From positions 1 to 41,706 of the forward strand of contig JAFLCE010000030.1 of assembly GCA_017303655.1 (NCBI GenBank): a stretch of 41,706 bases of DNA, written 5' to 3'. The notes under the pieces are model-generated. The model made no database searches. It had not been told where the DNA came from and saw only the letters and a program-made list of their open reading frames with translations. Shown here one piece after another: positions 6,473-13,334 of the stretch (position 1 is its first letter; each line of letters starts with the position of its first letter). The position numbers were made by a program, and so were the translations under genes. This stretch comes from Anaerolineae bacterium. Lineage in GTDB: Bacteria > Chloroflexota > Anaerolineae > Anaerolineales > Villigracilaceae.

Positions 6473-7366
6473 ATGGAAGATCGAATTATCACCTACGGCG
6501 GACAAGCCGTGATTGAAGGCGTTATGATGCGCGGACAGAAAGCCTTTGCCGTTGCCATGCGCGCGCCAGACGGTAACATCGTCGTCCACACGGAGCCGCT
6601 TGCCAGCATCTATAGTTCAAAGATCACAAAGTTTCCTTTTCTACGCGGCGTCATTTTATTGTGGGATGCACTCGGGCTCGGCATGCGTGCCCTGACCTTA
6701 TCTGCGAACACTCAAACCGGCGAAGATGAAAAACTGGAAGGACCGGCTCTTTACCTGACTTTGGCTGTATCGCTCTCCTTTGGCATTGGTCTCTTCTTTT
6801 TGCTTCCCACCAGCGTAGGCGGCGGCGTGGAATACTGGCTCACCCAAAGCGGATTGAACTACGCTTACTGGTTCGGAAATCTGGCTGAGGGCGTATTCCA
6901 ACTATTGCTGTTGATCGGCTACATTTGGGCAATCGGTTTCATGCCGGATATCAAACGCGTTTTTCAATATCACGGTGCGGAACACAAGACGATCAACGCC
7001 TTCGAAGCGGGCGCGGAACTGACTCCTGAAAGTGTAGAAAAATTTCCCATCGAACATCCACGTTGCGGCACAGCCTTTTTGCTGACTCTCGTGCTGTTCT
7101 CGATCATCCTCTTCTCTCTGCTTGGACCACTGCCATTCTATTTGAGAATTATTTCGCGTATTTTGTTCATCCCAGTTTTGGCTGGCATTGCAGTGGAATA
7201 TATCCGCTGGACCGCGAATAACCTCAACAACCCTATTGTTAAATTACTCATCAAGCCAAATTTAGCGTTGCAGTTACTCACCACTCGTCCACCTGATCGC
7301 GAGATGTTAGCTGTTGCGATTGAATCTTTTCAGTCCATGCGCAAGGCTGAGGCAGAAGTCAAGTAA
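6473..7366 (+). CDS. DUF1385 family membrane protein
   Basis: The 297-residue product is recognised by its family signatures: YGGQAVIEGVMMRG at the N-terminus, YHGAEHKTINAFE in the middle and HPRCGTAFLL. About four or five hydrophobic segments (roughly residues 95-115, 138-158, 200-222 and 230-250) place it in the membrane. The biochemical function of DUF1385 is not established. In Firmicutes and Chloroflexota it is often near prfA/rpmE-type genes, but not here. A weak AAGGA lies 15 nt upstream of the start. Confidence 0.88.
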   Translation: MEDRIITYGGQAVIEGVMMRGQKAFAVAMRAPDGNIVVHTEPLASIYSSKITKFPFLRGVILLWDALGLGMRALTLSANTQTGEDEKLEGPALYLTLAVSLSFGIGLFFLLPTSVGGGVEYWLTQSGLNYAYWFGNLAEGVFQLLLLIGYIWAIGFMPDIKRVFQYHGAEHKTINAFEAGAELTPESVEKFPIEHPRCGTAFLLTLVLFSIILFSLLGPLPFYLRIISRILFIPVLAGIAVEYIRWTANNLNNPIVKLLIKPNLALQLLTTRPPDREMLAVAIESFQSMRKAEAEVK

Positions 7367-7382
7367 CTTTTTCCGAATTATT

Positions 7383-7420
7383 AAATAAAAAGAGACAGGC
7401 ATGCCTGTCTCTTTTTATTT
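7383..7420. terminator. Bidirectional-type terminator after the DUF1385 gene
   Basis: A 38-bp perfect palindrome with half AAATAAAAAGAGACAGGCA; the arms end in A and T runs, so it can end transcripts from either side. Confidence 0.85.
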
Positions 7421-7568: not shown

Positions 7569-7710
7569 GTAATTGGCTTTAAGCAGACCATCATTTATGC
7601 CATGCCGAAGATCGGCAGTCTGGAGGATATGCGACAACAACCTAACCCCTCAATGCTTTCAGACACATTTAGACCCTGTTATGTCCATAGAAAGAAAAAG
7701 GAGAACTATG

Positions 7711-8967
7711 ATGAAAGTTAAGAATTTGTTTCGCGTTGCAATGTTAATTGCAACCTTGGTCAGCGTGTTCGGCGCTGGCTCTCAAGCGTATGCGCAGGGA
7801 AGCTCCACCAACACCCTCGGCGCACAGATCATCATCCGCAGCACCACGTTTTGGGATGCAGTCTTCAACGGCAACGTGAACGCCAACCGCTATGAGCGTT
7901 GGGCGCTTCAGCTTGTCGAAGGGGAGAACTTCACCGTGTCGGTCATCACGACCTCCGGCACATTGACTCCCGATATCCATCTGTTGGATGCCAATGAGAA
8001 TGAGATCTCTGTGGTAAGTGGCTCGCTCTCAAGCGCTGTCCTTAACGCCAACCAGCCCGCAGGCGATTATTTCATTCAGATCCAGCCCAAATCTGGTGAA
8101 GGCACCTATTTGATGGAAATCACCCGCATCGAGCAGGTGGTTGAACCCACCGCTTCTGTGGTCTTGAACCCGGCTTCGGTTGAAGTGGGTGGCACCTCTA
8201 CGGGTACGTTAATGTTGACCAATATTCCTGAAGGCGGATACGCCAGCGCTGAATTCACTTGTACCTATAACCCGGCGTTGATCTCCATCAGCAATATCGC
8301 TGACTCTGGTCTCTTCGGCTCAGACCCCGCCGTTGCCATGAGTGGTCCTGCGGATGGTTCCTTCGTCTTCGCTGTGGCTGGTACCAACAGTCAACGCGCT
8401 ACCAGTGACGGCGCTGTCTTCACCTTCACCGTCACCGCTTTGGCTGCCGGAAATGCAGAGATCAATTGTGTGGCGCGCGTTTCCACTGGCGGCAGCCTCA
8501 CAACCATCGCCTCTGTCCCTGCAACGTTGGGCATCACCGAACCTGTTGTGTTGGACGGTTCTTTGGCGGGCACAGCTCTTGCCACCAAGACTGTCACCGT
8601 CACCCTGTATAACCAGGATACGACCGTTCAAGGCACTGCCACCCCGGATGCAAACGGAAATTTTTCCATCACGGCTCCGGCGGGCAGCTACACCGCTGTC
8701 GCTTCGGCGCCCGGGTTCCTCAGAGCCCAAGCCAGCCCGGTCCTCACCTCTGGTGCAACTACAACGTTGCAATCGGTCACCCTGCTCGCCGGTGATATTG
8801 ATGGCAATGACGTCATCGATCAATTTGATGCCCTCACCATCGGCATCAACTACAACCTCGCCGCCCCCGCCGCTGCTGACTTGAACAACGACGGAACGAT
8901 CAACGTTCTCGACCTTGAACTTCTCGCAGCAAACTACCGCCTGACGGGTCCCCTCGCCTGGCAATAA
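7711..8967 (+). CDS. Secreted cohesin and dockerin protein
   Basis: The 418-residue product has a signal peptide (about 1-28, cut after AYA) and a beta-sandwich resembling a pre-peptidase C-terminal domain (about 33-145). A cohesin domain follows (about 150-278; NIPEGGYASAEFTCTYNP is the typical strand 3-4 region). Next come a carboxypeptidase-regulatory/Cna-B-like fold (about 282-355) and a type I dockerin (about 361-415). The dockerin has two calcium loops, DIDGNDVIDQFD and DLNNDGTINVLD. Two cohesin cysteines (FTC, INC) may form a disulfide. AAGGAG lies 7 nt before the ATG at 7711; an ATG at 7708 is also possible. It shares its C-terminal half with the M23 protein two genes on. Confidence 0.82.
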   Translation: MKVKNLFRVAMLIATLVSVFGAGSQAYAQGSSTNTLGAQIIIRSTTFWDAVFNGNVNANRYERWALQLVEGENFTVSVITTSGTLTPDIHLLDANENEISVVSGSLSSAVLNANQPAGDYFIQIQPKSGEGTYLMEITRIEQVVEPTASVVLNPASVEVGGTSTGTLMLTNIPEGGYASAEFTCTYNPALISISNIADSGLFGSDPAVAMSGPADGSFVFAVAGTNSQRATSDGAVFTFTVTALAAGNAEINCVARVSTGGSLTTIASVPATLGITEPVVLDGSLAGTALATKTVTVTLYNQDTTVQGTATPDANGNFSITAPAGSYTAVASAPGFLRAQASPVLTSGATTTLQSVTLLAGDIDGNDVIDQFDALTIGINYNLAAPAAADLNNDGTINVLDLELLAANYRLTGPLAWQ

Positions 8968-8985
8968 ACCAACCTGGCAATGCAA

Positions 8986-9014
8986 GGACGCGCCGACTCA
9001 CCCTCGGCGCGTCC
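8986..9014 (+). promoter_or_regulatory. GC-rich hairpin between the first and second cohesin genes
   Basis: GGACGCGCCGA (8986-8996) and TCGGCGCGTCC (9004-9014) form a perfect 11-bp stem with a 7-nt loop. No T-run follows, so it more likely protects mRNA ends or sets the ratio of the flanking products than ends transcription outright. Confidence 0.6.
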
Positions 9015-9030
9015 ACCTTCGGAGTTCACA

Positions 9031-9714
9031 ATGAAAAAACTTGCTTTGACCCTCATCGCACTTATCTACTTATTTGTTGCCATGCCTGTACAGGCACAGG
9101 CAGCGGAATCCATTTGGATCACCGCCAGTACCGCCAGCTTCAAAACGGGCGAAACCGTTATTGTTACCGTAAACGGTCTTTCTGCCGCGCCCATTCAAGG
9201 GCTTACTTTTCAAATTACATTTGATCCGGCTTGTCTTAAGCCGGTCAATGCTGCCAGCCCCATTCCGGGGTTGAACGGACTTCCCCTCCCGCAAATTACT
9301 GGTCTTGTTGATGCATCATTCGCAAGCACTACACCTCAGGTTGCCAACGGTGTGTTGGCAGAGGTGCGTTTTACCACGCTTGGCGCCTGCCAAACCAATG
9401 TAACCCTGCAAAGTGCTGCCTTGGTCATCAAGAATGAATCTGGTTTTGCGGCACCCTTGCCCGGTGTATCTCTCGGCGAAAAAACGATTGCAGTAGCGAT
9501 TAGTGCGGAACAAGGCTCCGCACAGGATCTGCCCCTGTTGGGCACCCCGCTCCCGCTTGGGGTTGAGCCGGTTTCTACATCCTCAACTTCTCTTCCCACT
9601 GGAACCTTGATCGTGCTCGTTGTCATCGGCATTCTGCTCGTGATCGGCATCATTGTTTTGATCCGCATTCTCAAAGGGGATGGGTCGACATCCACCCCGG
9701 CTCGAAAAGGGTAA
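9031..9714 (+). CDS. Cohesin-domain protein with C-terminal membrane anchor
   Basis: The 227-residue product has a signal peptide (about 1-25, cut near AQA) and a single cohesin-like domain (about 28-160; LTFQITFDPACLKPVN matches the conserved cohesin strand pattern). A Ser/Thr/Pro linker leads to one membrane segment (about 191-213) and a short basic tail ending PARKG. There is no sortase motif, so the anchor is the membrane helix itself. The ATG at 9031 has GGAG 6 nt upstream; the earlier in-frame start at 8980 would encode the hairpin. By analogy with cellulosomes it could hold dockerin-bearing proteins on the cell. The partner choice is inferred from the neighbours. Confidence 0.75.
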   Translation: MKKLALTLIALIYLFVAMPVQAQAAESIWITASTASFKTGETVIVTVNGLSAAPIQGLTFQITFDPACLKPVNAASPIPGLNGLPLPQITGLVDASFASTTPQVANGVLAEVRFTTLGACQTNVTLQSAALVIKNESGFAAPLPGVSLGEKTIAVAISAEQGSAQDLPLLGTPLPLGVEPVSTSSTSLPTGTLIVLVVIGILLVIGIIVLIRILKGDGSTSTPARKG

Positions 9715-9747
9715 AAGGCAGCCTGCCAGCCTTAGAAGGAACCCGCT

Positions 9748-12375
9748 ATGAAAATTAAGACACATGTTCGAATTATGTTGTTAGCTGCGATCCTGCTCTC
9801 TGCAATTCCGGCGAATGTTTTTGCTTCCACTACGCCGCCTGTGGACATGTTCCAATTGCCTTGGGAGCAGGGGAAGGCATGGGTTTCTTACGATGGGCTT
9901 GATAATGGCTGGAGGCGACCAAGCTCCAGCCCGCATAATTACAATATGGGCGGCGCCATCGATTTTGCCCCGCGTGTGAAAATGACAGTGGGCGAAGATA
10001 CCTCGAACGACTGGGTGACTGCAGCTGCGGCTGGAACGGTGACTCAGGTCGGTTCTTGTTTTATTAAGATCGATCATGGCAATGGTTGGCTCACTGAGTA
10101 TTGGCACCTCGATAAAATTCAGGTGACGGCTGGTAGCAAGGTCAGCCGCAATCAAAAGCTGGCGGTCATTCACAATAACAAGACTCAGCAAGTCTGTCTC
10201 GGGAATGAATTTCCCGGACCGCATTTGCATTTTGTGTTTCGCCCTAAAGTCTTGGATACTCGTTTTGCCGGGTGGACGGTGAATTACAACGCATTCACGA
10301 ACAAGACGACCTATACCAAAAATGGTCAGACGGTGCCGATCCTGACACCTCTGATGAATATCCCGGACCTGCAAACTGTAACGCGTGGTTTGATCGATTG
10401 GAATATCAACTATGAGGGCAGTGTGGATGCCTATCGCCGTGAACGTTGGACGTTGATGTTGATCGAAGACGCCAAGTTCGAAGTGAACGTTAGCCCGAAT
10501 GCGATTGGGCTTGTGCCGGTCATTGTCTTATTGGATTCAAACGGTGCTGAGATCATGCGCGCCAATGGCACACTGAGCTCTACACAACCTGCTGGTTTCT
10601 ATTACATCGAGATCCAATCTGAAGCAGGGACGGGGTATTACAACCTGATTGCTACAAAACAAGAATCAGGCGGCGCAACAGTCACGCCTTCGCCGACTAT
10701 TACCGAAACTCCGCCCGCAACCGGAACACCAGACGGTTCTGAAACTCCAACTCCTACTGGCACATTGACGGGTTCTGAGACTCCGACTGCAACTGGAACT
10801 CTGGACGGTTCAGAAACCCCAACTGCAACCGGCACACTGACCGGCTCTGAAACACCGGATGGTTCTGAAACCCCAACTCCCACCGGCACTATAACGGTTT
10901 CAGAGACACCAACAGAAACACAGACACCACAATTTACAGATACGCCAACACAGACACTCACTGCCACGCCAACTCCGTTTGATGTGCCATCTGAAACGCC
11001 AACACCTAATTTTGCTGAGACCTCGATTGCAGGTACATCCATTGCTGGGACACAAACTGCGATAGCAGGTACTGAAATTGCAGGTACTCAAACCGCAATT
11101 GCAGGAACACAAACTGCCTTTGCAGGGACCTCCATTGTTGAGACACAGACCGCAATTGCTGGAACACAAACTGCCTTCGCAGGCACCTCTATTGCTGAAA
11201 CACAAACCGCAATCGCTGGTACTCAAACAGCTATTGATGCCACATCCATTGCTGGCACACAAACAGCGATTGCAGGTACTCAAACTGCGATCGACAGTAC
11301 TTCCATTGCCGGGACTCAAACTGCTATTTCGGGTACTCAAACGGCAATTATTGGCACAACTATTGCTGAGACACAAACCGCGATCGTTGCGACTCAAACT
11401 GCCATTAGTGGCACAGACATTGCGGGTACGCAAACCGCAATCTCAGGAACACAGACTGCAAACGTGCCGACATCCAGCCCGACCGTATCGGTTACACCAA
11501 CAATAACAACGGTGCCAACTCCCGTGGGTCCGTATGTGCTTGTGGATGTCATTCAACCGACACTGACATTTGATCAAACAAGCTTGGTGAACGTCAGCTT
11601 GAACAACGTCCCGGTCGAAGGCTACACCAGCACCGAATTCGTTTGTACCTACGACCCCGCCATTGTAGAAGTGAGCGGCATCCTCGCGGCGGAACTTTTC
11701 GGCTCAGACCCCGCCTCTGCCATAAGCGGTCCACAGAACGGACAGTTCATACTCGGCATTGCAGGCACAAACGGCAAGAAAGCCACCTCCAGTGGCACTG
11801 CCTTCACCTTCGCCGTACGCGGCTTGCAAATTGGGCAGACCACCGTCCAATGTACGGCTCGCGTTTCAGTGGGGCAGGGCAGTCTGGAAGCCATCGGCTA
11901 CATCCCAGATACGGTCACCGTGTTGGATGCGAATGTCTCTCCCACGCCTACCCCGGCAACCTCTTCGTTTGTGAGCGGACAAGTCCTTGCCAGCAAGCCC
12001 GTGACCATTCAACTCTTTGATGCAAGCAATGCCCTGCTCGTGTCACAAACCGTCAACCCGGATGGCACTTTCAACATTCAAATTTCCGGCGGCACCTACA
12101 CCATCGTCGCTTCGGCACAGGGCTATCTCAATGCCCAAGGGTTCATCACCCTCACCAACGGAGTCACGACCACCATGCAGACGGTCAGTTTGCCCGCCGG
12201 TGACATTGACGGGAACAGTGTCATTGACCAGTTCGATGCCCTGACCATTGGGATGAACTACAGCGCCTCGACTCCGACCGCAGCGGATCTCAACAACGAC
12301 GGTGTGATCAACGTCCTCGACCTTGAACTGCTGGCAGCCAACTATCGCAGATCGGGCGCTCTCGCCTGGCAGTAA
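9748..12375 (+). CDS. Secreted M23 peptidase with cohesin and dockerin
   Basis: The 875-residue product has a signal peptide (about 1-26) and an M23 peptidase domain (about 40-200) with H63...D72, YWH (H120) and HLH (H159, H161). The first His stands 9 residues before the Asp, as in LasA-type M23A, not the usual 4; C104 and C150 could pair. Then follow a pre-peptidase-type domain (about 211-305), Thr/Pro-rich ETPTPTGT repeats (about 312-416), a Thr/Ala/Gln 19-residue repeat (about 422-572), a cohesin (about 600-726), a Cna-B-like fold (about 740-815) and a dockerin (about 818-870; DIDGNSVIDQFD and DLNNDGVINVLD). M23 enzymes cut peptidoglycan cross-bridges or other peptides. A terminator follows. 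Confidence 0.85.
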   Translation: MKIKTHVRIMLLAAILLSAIPANVFASTTPPVDMFQLPWEQGKAWVSYDGLDNGWRRPSSSPHNYNMGGAIDFAPRVKMTVGEDTSNDWVTAAAAGTVTQVGSCFIKIDHGNGWLTEYWHLDKIQVTAGSKVSRNQKLAVIHNNKTQQVCLGNEFPGPHLHFVFRPKVLDTRFAGWTVNYNAFTNKTTYTKNGQTVPILTPLMNIPDLQTVTRGLIDWNINYEGSVDAYRRERWTLMLIEDAKFEVNVSPNAIGLVPVIVLLDSNGAEIMRANGTLSSTQPAGFYYIEIQSEAGTGYYNLIATKQESGGATVTPSPTITETPPATGTPDGSETPTPTGTLTGSETPTATGTLDGSETPTATGTLTGSETPDGSETPTPTGTITVSETPTETQTPQFTDTPTQTLTATPTPFDVPSETPTPNFAETSIAGTSIAGTQTAIAGTEIAGTQTAIAGTQTAFAGTSIVETQTAIAGTQTAFAGTSIAETQTAIAGTQTAIDATSIAGTQTAIAGTQTAIDSTSIAGTQTAISGTQTAIIGTTIAETQTAIVATQTAISGTDIAGTQTAISGTQTANVPTSSPTVSVTPTITTVPTPVGPYVLVDVIQPTLTFDQTSLVNVSLNNVPVEGYTSTEFVCTYDPAIVEVSGILAAELFGSDPASAISGPQNGQFILGIAGTNGKKATSSGTAFTFAVRGLQIGQTTVQCTARVSVGQGSLEAIGYIPDTVTVLDANVSPTPTPATSSFVSGQVLASKPVTIQLFDASNALLVSQTVNPDGTFNIQISGGTYTIVASAQGYLNAQGFITLTNGVTTTMQTVSLPAGDIDGNSVIDQFDALTIGMNYSASTPTAADLNNDGVINVLDLELLAANYRRSGALAWQ
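11011..11466 (+). repeat. In-gene tandem repeat, about 57-bp unit (AGTQTAI motif)
   Basis: The coding sequence repeats units of 5+7+7 residues (for example AGTSI, AETQTAI, AGTQTAF), about eight times with small changes. Codons vary between copies, so the protein pattern is better kept than the DNA, which points to selection on the protein. It is probably a flexible or glycosylated stalk. Confidence 0.8.
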
Positions 12376-12384
12376 ATTAGAATC

Positions 12385-12432
12385 AAAAGAGACCAACGTT
12401 TACAAACGTTGGTCTCTTTTATTTTTTCTTCA
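12385..12432 (+). terminator. Intrinsic terminator of the cohesin-dockerin locus
   Basis: AAAAGAGACCAACGTT (12385-12400) and its complement (12405-12420) form a 16-bp stem followed by ATTTTTTC. It marks the 3' end of the three-gene unit. Confidence 0.88.
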
Positions 12433-12455: not shown

Positions 12456-13334
12456 ATGAAAAACAAAGCCTTTCGTTTTTTATGGTTACTCCCTGCTACT
12501 GTTTTGCTTGTTTTTGGGGCTTATTTTCTCTTCACACTTGGGCGTCCGGCTCCTATCCCGACAAAATATGAGTTGTACGATGGCATAACTTACCGTCGTG
12601 TCGTTAATTATCTGCCGCATGCTATGATCGCCCATGTCATCATCATTGATCGTAGAGAGGCAAACGTACGCTACCTCGTTACCCCGCCAGATGAAATTGA
12701 AGGCGGCTCTTTACAAGCGCGGACAACCTCTCAATTCCTCAACGAGTTTGGGGTACAGATCGCCATTAATGGCGATGGTTTCTTCCCGTGGCGGTCGCGC
12801 AGCCCTGTGGATTATTATCCGCATAGTGGTGACCCGGTCACGCCGCTTGGGTTCACTGCATCCGGTGGAACAGTATATGCCGACGGATTGCAGGATGAAG
12901 AACCTGAACCGACTTTATACATCAGTCGTCGTAATGAGCTGACCTTTAACCTGCCTCCGAACAAAATCTTTCACGCCCTTTCAGGCGACCGGATGTTGCT
13001 TCAAGGCGGTGAGATCACAGCTGGATTGGATGATTCCATTCTGCATCCACGCACGGCAATTGGTGTAAACCGCAATGGACGCTATGTAATTCTAGTTGTA
13101 GTGGATGGACGCCAGCCGTTTTATAGTGCGGGCGCAACCTATCAAGACCTTGCCGAACTACTTAAGGATTTCGACGTCTATTTTGCCATGGCGTTGGATG
13201 GTGGCGGTTCTTCGGCACTTGTAATTAAAGATAAATTTGGAAATACTCAAACTTTGAATTCGCCCATTGATAGCTACATTCCAGGGCGTGAGCGTCCCGT
13301 GGCAAATCACTTTGGCGTATACGTTGAACCTTAG
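12456..13334 (+). CDS. Phosphodiester glycosidase (NAGPA domain) protein
   Basis: The 292-residue product has one N-terminal membrane segment (about 8-28) and an extracytoplasmic NAGPA/DUF2233 domain (about 60-290). Family marks are AINGDGFF (Asn-Gly-Asp), LHPRTAIGVNRNGRYVILVV, the VDGRQP turn and ALDGGGSSALV, with the late RPVANHFGVY. The domain is named after the mammalian enzyme that uncovers mannose-6-phosphate; bacterial members act on surface glycans or phosphodiesters, and the substrate here is unknown. It lies 80 bp after the terminator of the cohesin locus on the same strand. Its stop codon overlaps that of the convergent nuclease gene by 3 nt. Confidence 0.88.
   Translation: MKNKAFRFLWLLPATVLLVFGAYFLFTLGRPAPIPTKYELYDGITYRRVVNYLPHAMIAHVIIIDRREANVRYLVTPPDEIEGGSLQARTTSQFLNEFGVQIAINGDGFFPWRSRSPVDYYPHSGDPVTPLGFTASGGTVYADGLQDEEPEPTLYISRRNELTFNLPPNKIFHALSGDRMLLQGGEITAGLDDSILHPRTAIGVNRNGRYVILVVVDGRQPFYSAGATYQDLAELLKDFDVYFAMALDGGGSSALVIKDKFGNTQTLNSPIDSYIPGRERPVANHFGVYVEP

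Follow-up and report, generated by a model that had tools for sequence, protein, structure and literature searches.

A three-gene cohesin and dockerin locus in an Anaerolineae genome, a candidate for a small surface-anchored system

The window, that is, the whole stretch of 41,706 nucleotides analysed here (contig JAFLCE010000030.1 of assembly GCA_017303655.1, Anaerolineae bacterium), contains three neighbouring genes encoding cohesin and dockerin modules. The products of genes 1 and 3 each carry one cohesin and one dockerin in the same order, with an X-like domain between them (Coh-X-Doc), and gene 2 encodes a cohesin followed by a hydrophobic helix. Judging from the sequences, we see about an even chance that this trio forms a small closed surface system, in which gene 2 would provide the anchor and genes 1 and 3 the secreted links of a calcium (Ca)-dependent chain growing outward. 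The original prediction had placed a surface-anchored cohesin/dockerin chain at 7711..12375; its coordinates are right, its observation is confirmed, and its interpretation is partly supported. New beyond it are the likeness of the two dockerins within a locus, FHA domains on relatives of gene 2, sister loci with LysM and lipobox-like features, and the loss of a His residue in some M23 domains.

Modules of the trio

The three genes lie on the forward (+) strand with intergenic gaps of 63 and 33 bases, the ends of the open reading frames (ORFs) being computed and the starts chosen by eye. Gene 1 (7708..8967), for which ATG at 7708 or at 7711 are both possible starts, encodes a signal peptide, a PPC-like beta domain (about 7822-8127), a cohesin (8158-8496), an X-like CarboxypepD_reg domain (about 8590-8784), and a dockerin (8788-8928), with AWQ at its C-terminus. 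Gene 2 (9031..9714) encodes a signal peptide, a cohesin, and a single C-terminal hydrophobic stretch (about 9580-9693), followed by K/R residues that form a short basic tail, as expected of the membrane-held cohesin claimed for the middle gene. Gene 3 (9748..12375) is the longest and reveals a signal peptide, a LasA-like M23 domain (about 10006-10245), a PPC-like domain (about 10369-10659), a Thr-rich repeat linker (about 10660-11541), a cohesin (11587-11901), an X-like domain (about 12049-12183), and a dockerin (12196-12336). The putative signal peptides of genes 1, 2, and 3, recognised by eye, end in AYA, AQA, and VFA, respectively.

A Pfam scan of the entire genome (G000; 4,605,709 bases, 172 contigs, 93.55% complete) placed all three cohesins above the cut-off of PF00963 (24.1 bits), with 35.6 bits for 8158-8496, 26.3 bits for 9133-9423, and 24.7 bits for 11587-11901. 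Both dockerins passed the cut-off of PF00404 (dockerin type I, 22.9 bits), with 27.8 bits for 8788-8928 and 29.5 bits for 12196-12336. The modules named in the original prediction have hence passed the profile check in every case, and the scan found no further match of either model elsewhere in G000, and so no other Pfam dockerin protein; all Pfam cohesins and dockerins of this 4.6 Mb genome sit in one stretch of 4.2 kb. Some of the matches are marginal: a whole-protein hmmscan gave the dockerins 23.5 and 25.1 bits and left the gene-3 cohesin unlisted at E <= 0.1. The gene-3 cohesin reached 204.7 bits with a model of 39 trio cohesins, which includes this cohesin itself, and it is backed by its orthologue at locus L095, which passes PF00963 (29.7 bits). 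Since the two dockerins of the L095 trio score only 15.9 and 11.8 bits, Pfam can miss dockerins of this type. The Cna-B-like fold proposed between cohesin and dockerin was recovered in gene 1, where the X-like domain is PF13620 CarboxypepD_reg (37.1 bits, cut-off 32.3); in gene 3, the sole listing, PF13715, stayed under its cut-off (19 against 32.2 bits). The PPC-like domain is weak (PF04151 with 14.4 bits in gene 1, cut-off 25.9), and its assignment is based on home-made models.

A Coh-X-Doc profile of 36 rows (22 of the gene-1 type and 14 gene-3 tails) aligned with 3kcp in a single uninterrupted alignment from cohesin through dockerin (E 2e-9), followed by the X-Doc modules 4wi0 and 4u3s as the next matches; 3kcp, as well as 2b59, we take to be the C-terminal Coh9-X-DocII of CipA from the Clostridium thermocellum cellulosome. 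The gene 2 profile matches the cellulosomal cohesins 3l8q (E 2.4e-8) and 5g5d (1.1e-7). Two predicted Ca-binding EF loops are present in all 39 trio dockerins, with acidic residues or Asn as ligands: Asp occupies positions 1 and 12 in each loop and Asn position 3 of the second loop, without exception. The X domain is directly joined to the dockerin (X-Doc coordinate step of 2 in 42 of 43 proteins), and the Coh-X step measures 12-28 residues in 36 of 43 proteins and 91-351 residues at L069-L072. One could object that these are surface proteins whose Ig-like domains and Ca-binding EF-hands resemble cohesins and dockerins but do not bind as such, considering the modest scores in the window (24.7-35.6 bits for cohesins and 23.5-29.5 bits for dockerins) and the low-scoring dockerins of L095. 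Against this stand the continuous CipA alignment, the strict Ca loops, the co-occurrence of both modules in the same genomes, and the dockerin likeness within loci, and we regard mere resemblance as highly improbable.

Conservation of the set and likeness of its dockerins

Uncultured Anaerolineales and other Chloroflexota make up the named relatives, among them one labelled Candidatus Villigracilaceae. Among 57 genomes of the genus, Pfam cohesin and Pfam dockerin were found in an identical set of 39 and were both missing from an identical set of 18 (sets compared by eye). In most of the 39, trio-type proteins combine the two modules in a single ORF; in G006, G008, G019, G022, G035, G070, and G073, a Pfam dockerin and Pfam cohesins lie on separate genes. 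Among 61 relatives, cohesin and dockerin were each detected in 31, with 30 common to both; the cohesin-only genome G056 has a weak adjoining dockerin (12.8 bits) and the dockerin-only genome G054 a weak adjoining cohesin (18.3 bits). A search of 37 genus genomes returned gene 1 near-full in one ORF in 20 of them (17 with a single match, three with two), all of which also match gene 2. Across the class, the gene 2 profile matched eight of 396 sampled genomes, namely six of the genus, the family member G420 with two copies, and the borderline G320 (E 9.3e-7).

The same trio recurs in related genomes, the order 1-2-3 being present at 16 of 21 named loci scored with home-made models (L052, L054, L056-L060, L062-L067, L069, L070, and L072). 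At L054 and L059, gene 3 is cut short where the contig stops; at L063, an additional Coh-X-Doc gene separates genes 1 and 2. L053, L061, L068, and L071 are broken off by contig ends, and L055 shows genes 1 and 3 without gene 2 between them; in G074, taken as the same genome as L055, gene 2 is located on a different contig next to DUF1385 (L100). Similarly, G031 has a gene 2 next to DUF1385 at a distance of 2.8 Mb on the contig of its trio, with a 55-residue piece left at the trio, and G017 displays gene 2 as a 36-residue piece only.

At the 18 loci where genes 1 and 3 are both present, the two dockerins of a locus share 79.8% identity, as compared to 76.3% for dockerin 1 orthologues, 73.4% for dockerin 3 orthologues, and 73.2% for cross-locus pairs, and none of 20,000 shuffles reached the within-locus value. 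The other domains differ far less between pairs within a locus and across loci, with 53.3% vs. 51.4% for cohesins (p 0.005), 52.9% vs. 50.3% for X (p 0.004), and 43.4% vs. 42.6% for PPC (p 0.17; 13 loci). This dockerin likeness within loci, far above that of the other domains, would be anticipated if both dockerins read one partner; they probably share one reading surface, and selection for a common partner fits this pattern. Gene conversion as the cause is not favoured: the within-locus excess at silent third positions is similar for all three domains (cohesin 0.063, X 0.072, dockerin 0.084; p 0.001-0.004), making dockerin-only copying unlikely. At loop positions 10-11, the first loop reads Q-F or Q-L in 38 of 39 trio dockerins and the second V/I/L followed by L in all 39, unlike the dockerins of a second, LysM-type locus described below, which show IL and IS (by eye). 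G071 contains both dockerin kinds.

Candidate partners, the membrane cohesin and the M23 passenger

In the proposed chain, gene 2 would be the membrane anchor with its cohesin facing outside, and genes 1 and 3 would be secreted links, each offering a socket (the cohesin) and a plug (the dockerin) on an X-Doc dyad. Both plugs would read the same partner and attach to the anchor, to the cohesin of the following link, or to both, giving a short Ca-dependent chain that extends outward. Gene 1 would act as a plain link and gene 3 as a link whose M23 domain, on a spacer of ~295 residues, may reach the peptidoglycan of the cell itself or of a neighbour, so that the assembly could connect membrane and wall, present the M23 domain on a filament, or both. 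Head-to-tail polymerisation of the trio proteins, the core of the original prediction, appears plausible.

As to the cohesin that would serve as the partner, the cohesin of gene 2 and those of genes 1 and 3 form separate classes that barely detect each other (profile comparison probability 17.7%, E 0.0014; cross-scores of 0.4-10.6 bits among the values listed). Cellulosomes separate such cohesin classes by function, and a single shared dockerin type would most simply mean one partner class. Both points would suit an anchoring without chains, with both dockerins binding the gene 2 cohesin only and the cohesins of genes 1 and 3 binding other ligands or acting as spacers. We consider this possible, though rather unlikely, since the gene 1/3 cohesins stay conserved (57% between orthologues) and the Pfam-detected cohesins beside an X-Doc gene in the LysM-type loci are nearer to the gene 1/3 class.

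The LysM-type locus is a second type in the genus and combines an X-Doc protein, a cohesin-LysM protein, and a cohesin protein with a lipobox-like motif. The X-Doc protein in G008 and G073 is large, with LRR and a reprolysin-like match under the cut-off. The LysM scaffold has one or two cohesins and LysM at its end (tested with Pfam in two of seven genomes, the rest by eye), and the lipobox-like motif was seen on the single-cohesin protein in all seven (by a loose pattern and with provisional starts). All 17 cohesins of the scaffold and lipobox proteins in these seven genomes are nearer to the gene-1/3 model (15.1-30.1 vs. 0.4-9.6 bits), a count that omits five cohesin-like domains at the N-terminal side of the X-Doc proteins; these score weakly with either model, three being nearer to gene 1/3 and two nearer to gene 2. 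As cohesins of the gene-1/3 class here adjoin an X-Doc gene, they are plausible dockerin partners, likely so in the LysM-type loci, and by transfer they may play this role in the trio. Cohesins of other families (L081, L084, and L085) are nearer to gene 2 in five of five cases, as are three of the four cohesins at L093. This L093 (2662-7580; from G073, a genome that contains a LysM-type locus as well) displays a tandem Coh...Doc pair with dockerins of 12.6-12.8 bits, under the cut-off, beside two proteins with a cohesin and a transmembrane helix; L084 is a further site with such a set, again with sub-cut-off Pfam dockerins. The plan of a membrane cohesin with dockerin-bearing partners thus recurs, the wall-facing domain being M23 in one case and LysM in another.

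Loci of the LysM type were located at L073-L078, L091, and L092. Two further loci should be mentioned. L089 (1730-4711; from G031) encodes Spherulin4 and beta-helix domains, possibly a glycan-active passenger, followed by a Coh-X-Doc tail according to home-made models; in Pfam, its cohesin stays under the cut-off (22.2 bits) and a dockerin is unlisted. L085 (2460-4892), from another family, encodes an LVIVD-repeat protein with an X-Doc tail, the dockerin being just under the cut-off, and adjoins a weak cohesin gene.

Some relatives of gene 2 extend past the helix (six of 19 aligned proteins), and in all four tested (L062, L067, L072, and L097) Pfam detected an FHA domain behind it (E 7e-10 to 3.5e-16); Yop-YscD_cpl, which is related to FHA, also matches the tested extensions. 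With untested proteins assigned by alignment, gene 2 with FHA behind the helix is located at L062, L067, L069-L072, and L097. We know of no other cohesin receptors with a signalling domain, so that these relatives would be the first, and in an open-licence library no paper joined the terms cohesin, dockerin, and FHA domain. These domains invite a reading in which the chain subunits bind each other and the wall, and gene 2 mainly senses occupancy via its cytoplasmic side. This seems quite unlikely to us, as the copy in the window lacks FHA and ends in its short basic tail, and no kinase was found among five neighbours tested at two FHA loci. Somewhat less remote, yet still doubtful, is a daisy-chain surface organelle whose secreted units all have plug and socket, whose chains start on the transmembrane cohesin, and whose outside state, in some members of the family, is sensed by an FHA domain in the cytoplasm; if true, it would couple wall contact or filament integrity to Thr-phosphorylation signalling.

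The claim of an M23 peptidase on a trio protein holds for gene 3, whose domain scores 51.1 bits (cut-off 28.7) with LasA 3it5 as the best PDB match (E 1.2e-18). Residues H63, D72, H120, H159, and H161 are all present in the window protein, and we assume for them the roles of their LasA counterparts (Zn ligands and active-site His). Among 18 M23 domains, 14 keep YWHL, and four (L063, L069, L070, and L072) read YQFL and have lost one active-site His (the H120 equivalent), the other expected His and Asp residues being kept. Therefore, wall binding may matter more than cleavage. For the passenger, we consider a wall-directed role more probable than that of an enzyme in a nutrition complex. The Thr-rich linker (window 10660-11541) comprises about 295 residues with periods of 57/114 bases, and its length varies strongly among orthologues. 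In 14 of 18 gene 3 proteins, a spacer of 115-390 residues lies ahead of the cohesin; at L069, L070, and L072, its location has changed and it lies between cohesin and X (234-351 residues), and L063 is devoid of either spacer.

Several observations weigh against the chain. The co-occurrence of cohesin and dockerin is partly built in, as both sit on one polypeptide. The small but significant within-locus excess in cohesin, X, and silent sites (shuffle p 0.001-0.005) means that part of the dockerin effect may reflect shared composition or low-level exchange; moreover, a dockerin's own-locus partner ranks first in only five of 18 loci, which are themselves mutually related. Distance correlations over 11 loci, controlled for the PDDEXK neighbour, single out no cohesin: Doc1 gave 0.43 with Coh1 (p 0.008), 0.29 with Coh2 (p 0.13), and -0.10 with Coh3, and Doc3 gave 0.43 with Coh3 (p 0.005), 0.33 with Coh1 (p 0.029), and 0.00 with Coh2, while the M23 control correlated equally (0.44, p 0.017, and 0.39, p 0.012) and Doc3-X1 reached 0.58. 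A region scan found no promoter-like site on the trio strand. G033 retains gene 2, with no dockerin found, genes 1 and 3 being reduced to one 52-residue piece, and this gene 2 shows no Pfam cohesin at E <= 1. Finally, a molecule may bind itself in cis, especially with a long Coh-X step (L069-L072). A general cis clamp, in which each chain closes into a monomer through its own cohesin and dockerin and gene 2 is unrelated to the assembly, could draw on the presence of both modules on one chain and on the state of G033. It is very unlikely in our view: the Coh-X and X-Doc steps are short in most proteins, which would make folding back awkward, and gene 2 persists after relocation (G031; L055/G074).

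Regarding the surroundings of the trio, a terminator-like hairpin (12385..12420, + strand, 16 pairs with a T tail; 17 pairs on the other strand) lies directly 3' of gene 3. The scan gave seven such sites against 6.5 in shuffles, i.e., no excess, and the case for this candidate terminator is its long stem. With terminator sites at shuffle level and the lack of a promoter-like site in the scan, the cluster is operon-like by layout only. Behind the hairpin follows a gene for an N-terminal hydrophobic helix and a NAGPA phosphodiester glycosidase (12456..13334, +), which we list as an association only. Genes of this family lie upstream of gene 1 in relatives where seen, and the position in the window is a local rearrangement. 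Although it is a neighbour in many relatives, its inclusion in the transcription unit of the trio is not favoured in the window, given the hairpin. A DUF1385 membrane protein (6473..7366, +) is encoded upstream, as in many relatives, and between it and gene 1 a palindrome with a T run (7387..7416, no strand assigned) was noticed by eye, unflagged by the terminator scan. A tblastn search with gene 1 against a plasmid collection returned no match.

Comparison with known systems

Among the matches listed in our literature search, titles and abstract openings named no Anaerolineae cohesin-dockerin system; the survey by Peer et al. 2009, the main one of non-cellulosomal modules, may mention Chloroflexi. 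Six Anaerolineae genomes are described as having no cohesin-dockerin system (PMC4877987), cellulosome systems outside Firmicutes are stated in 2026 not to have been described (PMC12997984), and the function of cohesin/dockerin modules in non-cellulolytic genomes was given as not known in 2017 (PMC5244752).

Monovalent adaptor scaffoldins (PMC4959524) resemble the trio proteins in having cohesin and dockerin on one protein that passes the binding on; in the genome studied here, each of the two dockerin proteins has a cohesin as well, and a major scaffoldin for them to adapt to is lacking. Archaeoglobus fulgidus likewise has non-cellulosomal modules at neighbouring ORF numbers (dockerin ORF2375 and cohesin ORF2376), and their binding is strong and specific, as PMC9705933 cites from others; this pair is archaeal, and in the available text no M23 or FHA partner is mentioned, unlike in the trio and its relatives. 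Anaerobic methanotrophic (ANME) archaea are also non-cellulolytic and possess cohesin/dockerin proteins whose role is called unclear or unknown, but these form large sets that include ABC-transporter binding proteins and proteins with as many as five cohesins, in contrast to the closed set of three genes described here (PMC9012536, PMC5244752). The Limousia mucinolysome is akin to the trio as a non-cellulose cohesin-dockerin complex with a wall-anchored cohesin and dockerin peptidases, and binding of their own dockerins was predicted for two of its scaffoldins; it differs by multi-cohesin scaffoldins and many glycosidases (PMC12997984). If chains do form, the trio would amount to a surface polymer that assembles itself from a genetically minimal set; the sludge genera described in its family grow as filaments (PMC10746286). 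With three cohesins and two dockerins in one cluster, the set is small enough for a complete 3 x 2 binding matrix.

A cellulosome is rejected on the tested features, in agreement with the original prediction of a non-cellulosomal assembly. No scaffoldin with several cohesins was found, as each protein has one cohesin and the genome three Pfam cohesins, and there is no dockerin-bearing glycoside hydrolase, the two Pfam dockerins residing on gene 1, where no enzyme was seen, and on gene 3 with its M23 domain. Pfam scans of the three trio proteins listed no carbohydrate-binding module (CBM) at E <= 0.1; a scan of the genome for GH48 gave no match, nor did its controls. The closest known arrangement is that of the CipA Coh9-X-DocII segment, which has the same order Coh-X-Doc with X directly joined to the dockerin. 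The trio differs from CipA in its single cohesin per protein, in the lack of a CBM and of a detected dockerin glycosidase, and in its M23 passenger. The CipA system is anchored by S-layer homology (SLH) domains, whereas the candidate anchor of the trio is a hydrophobic helix. The trio would work like the scaffoldin-anchor part of a cellulosome, but is, by the features tested, no cellulosome.

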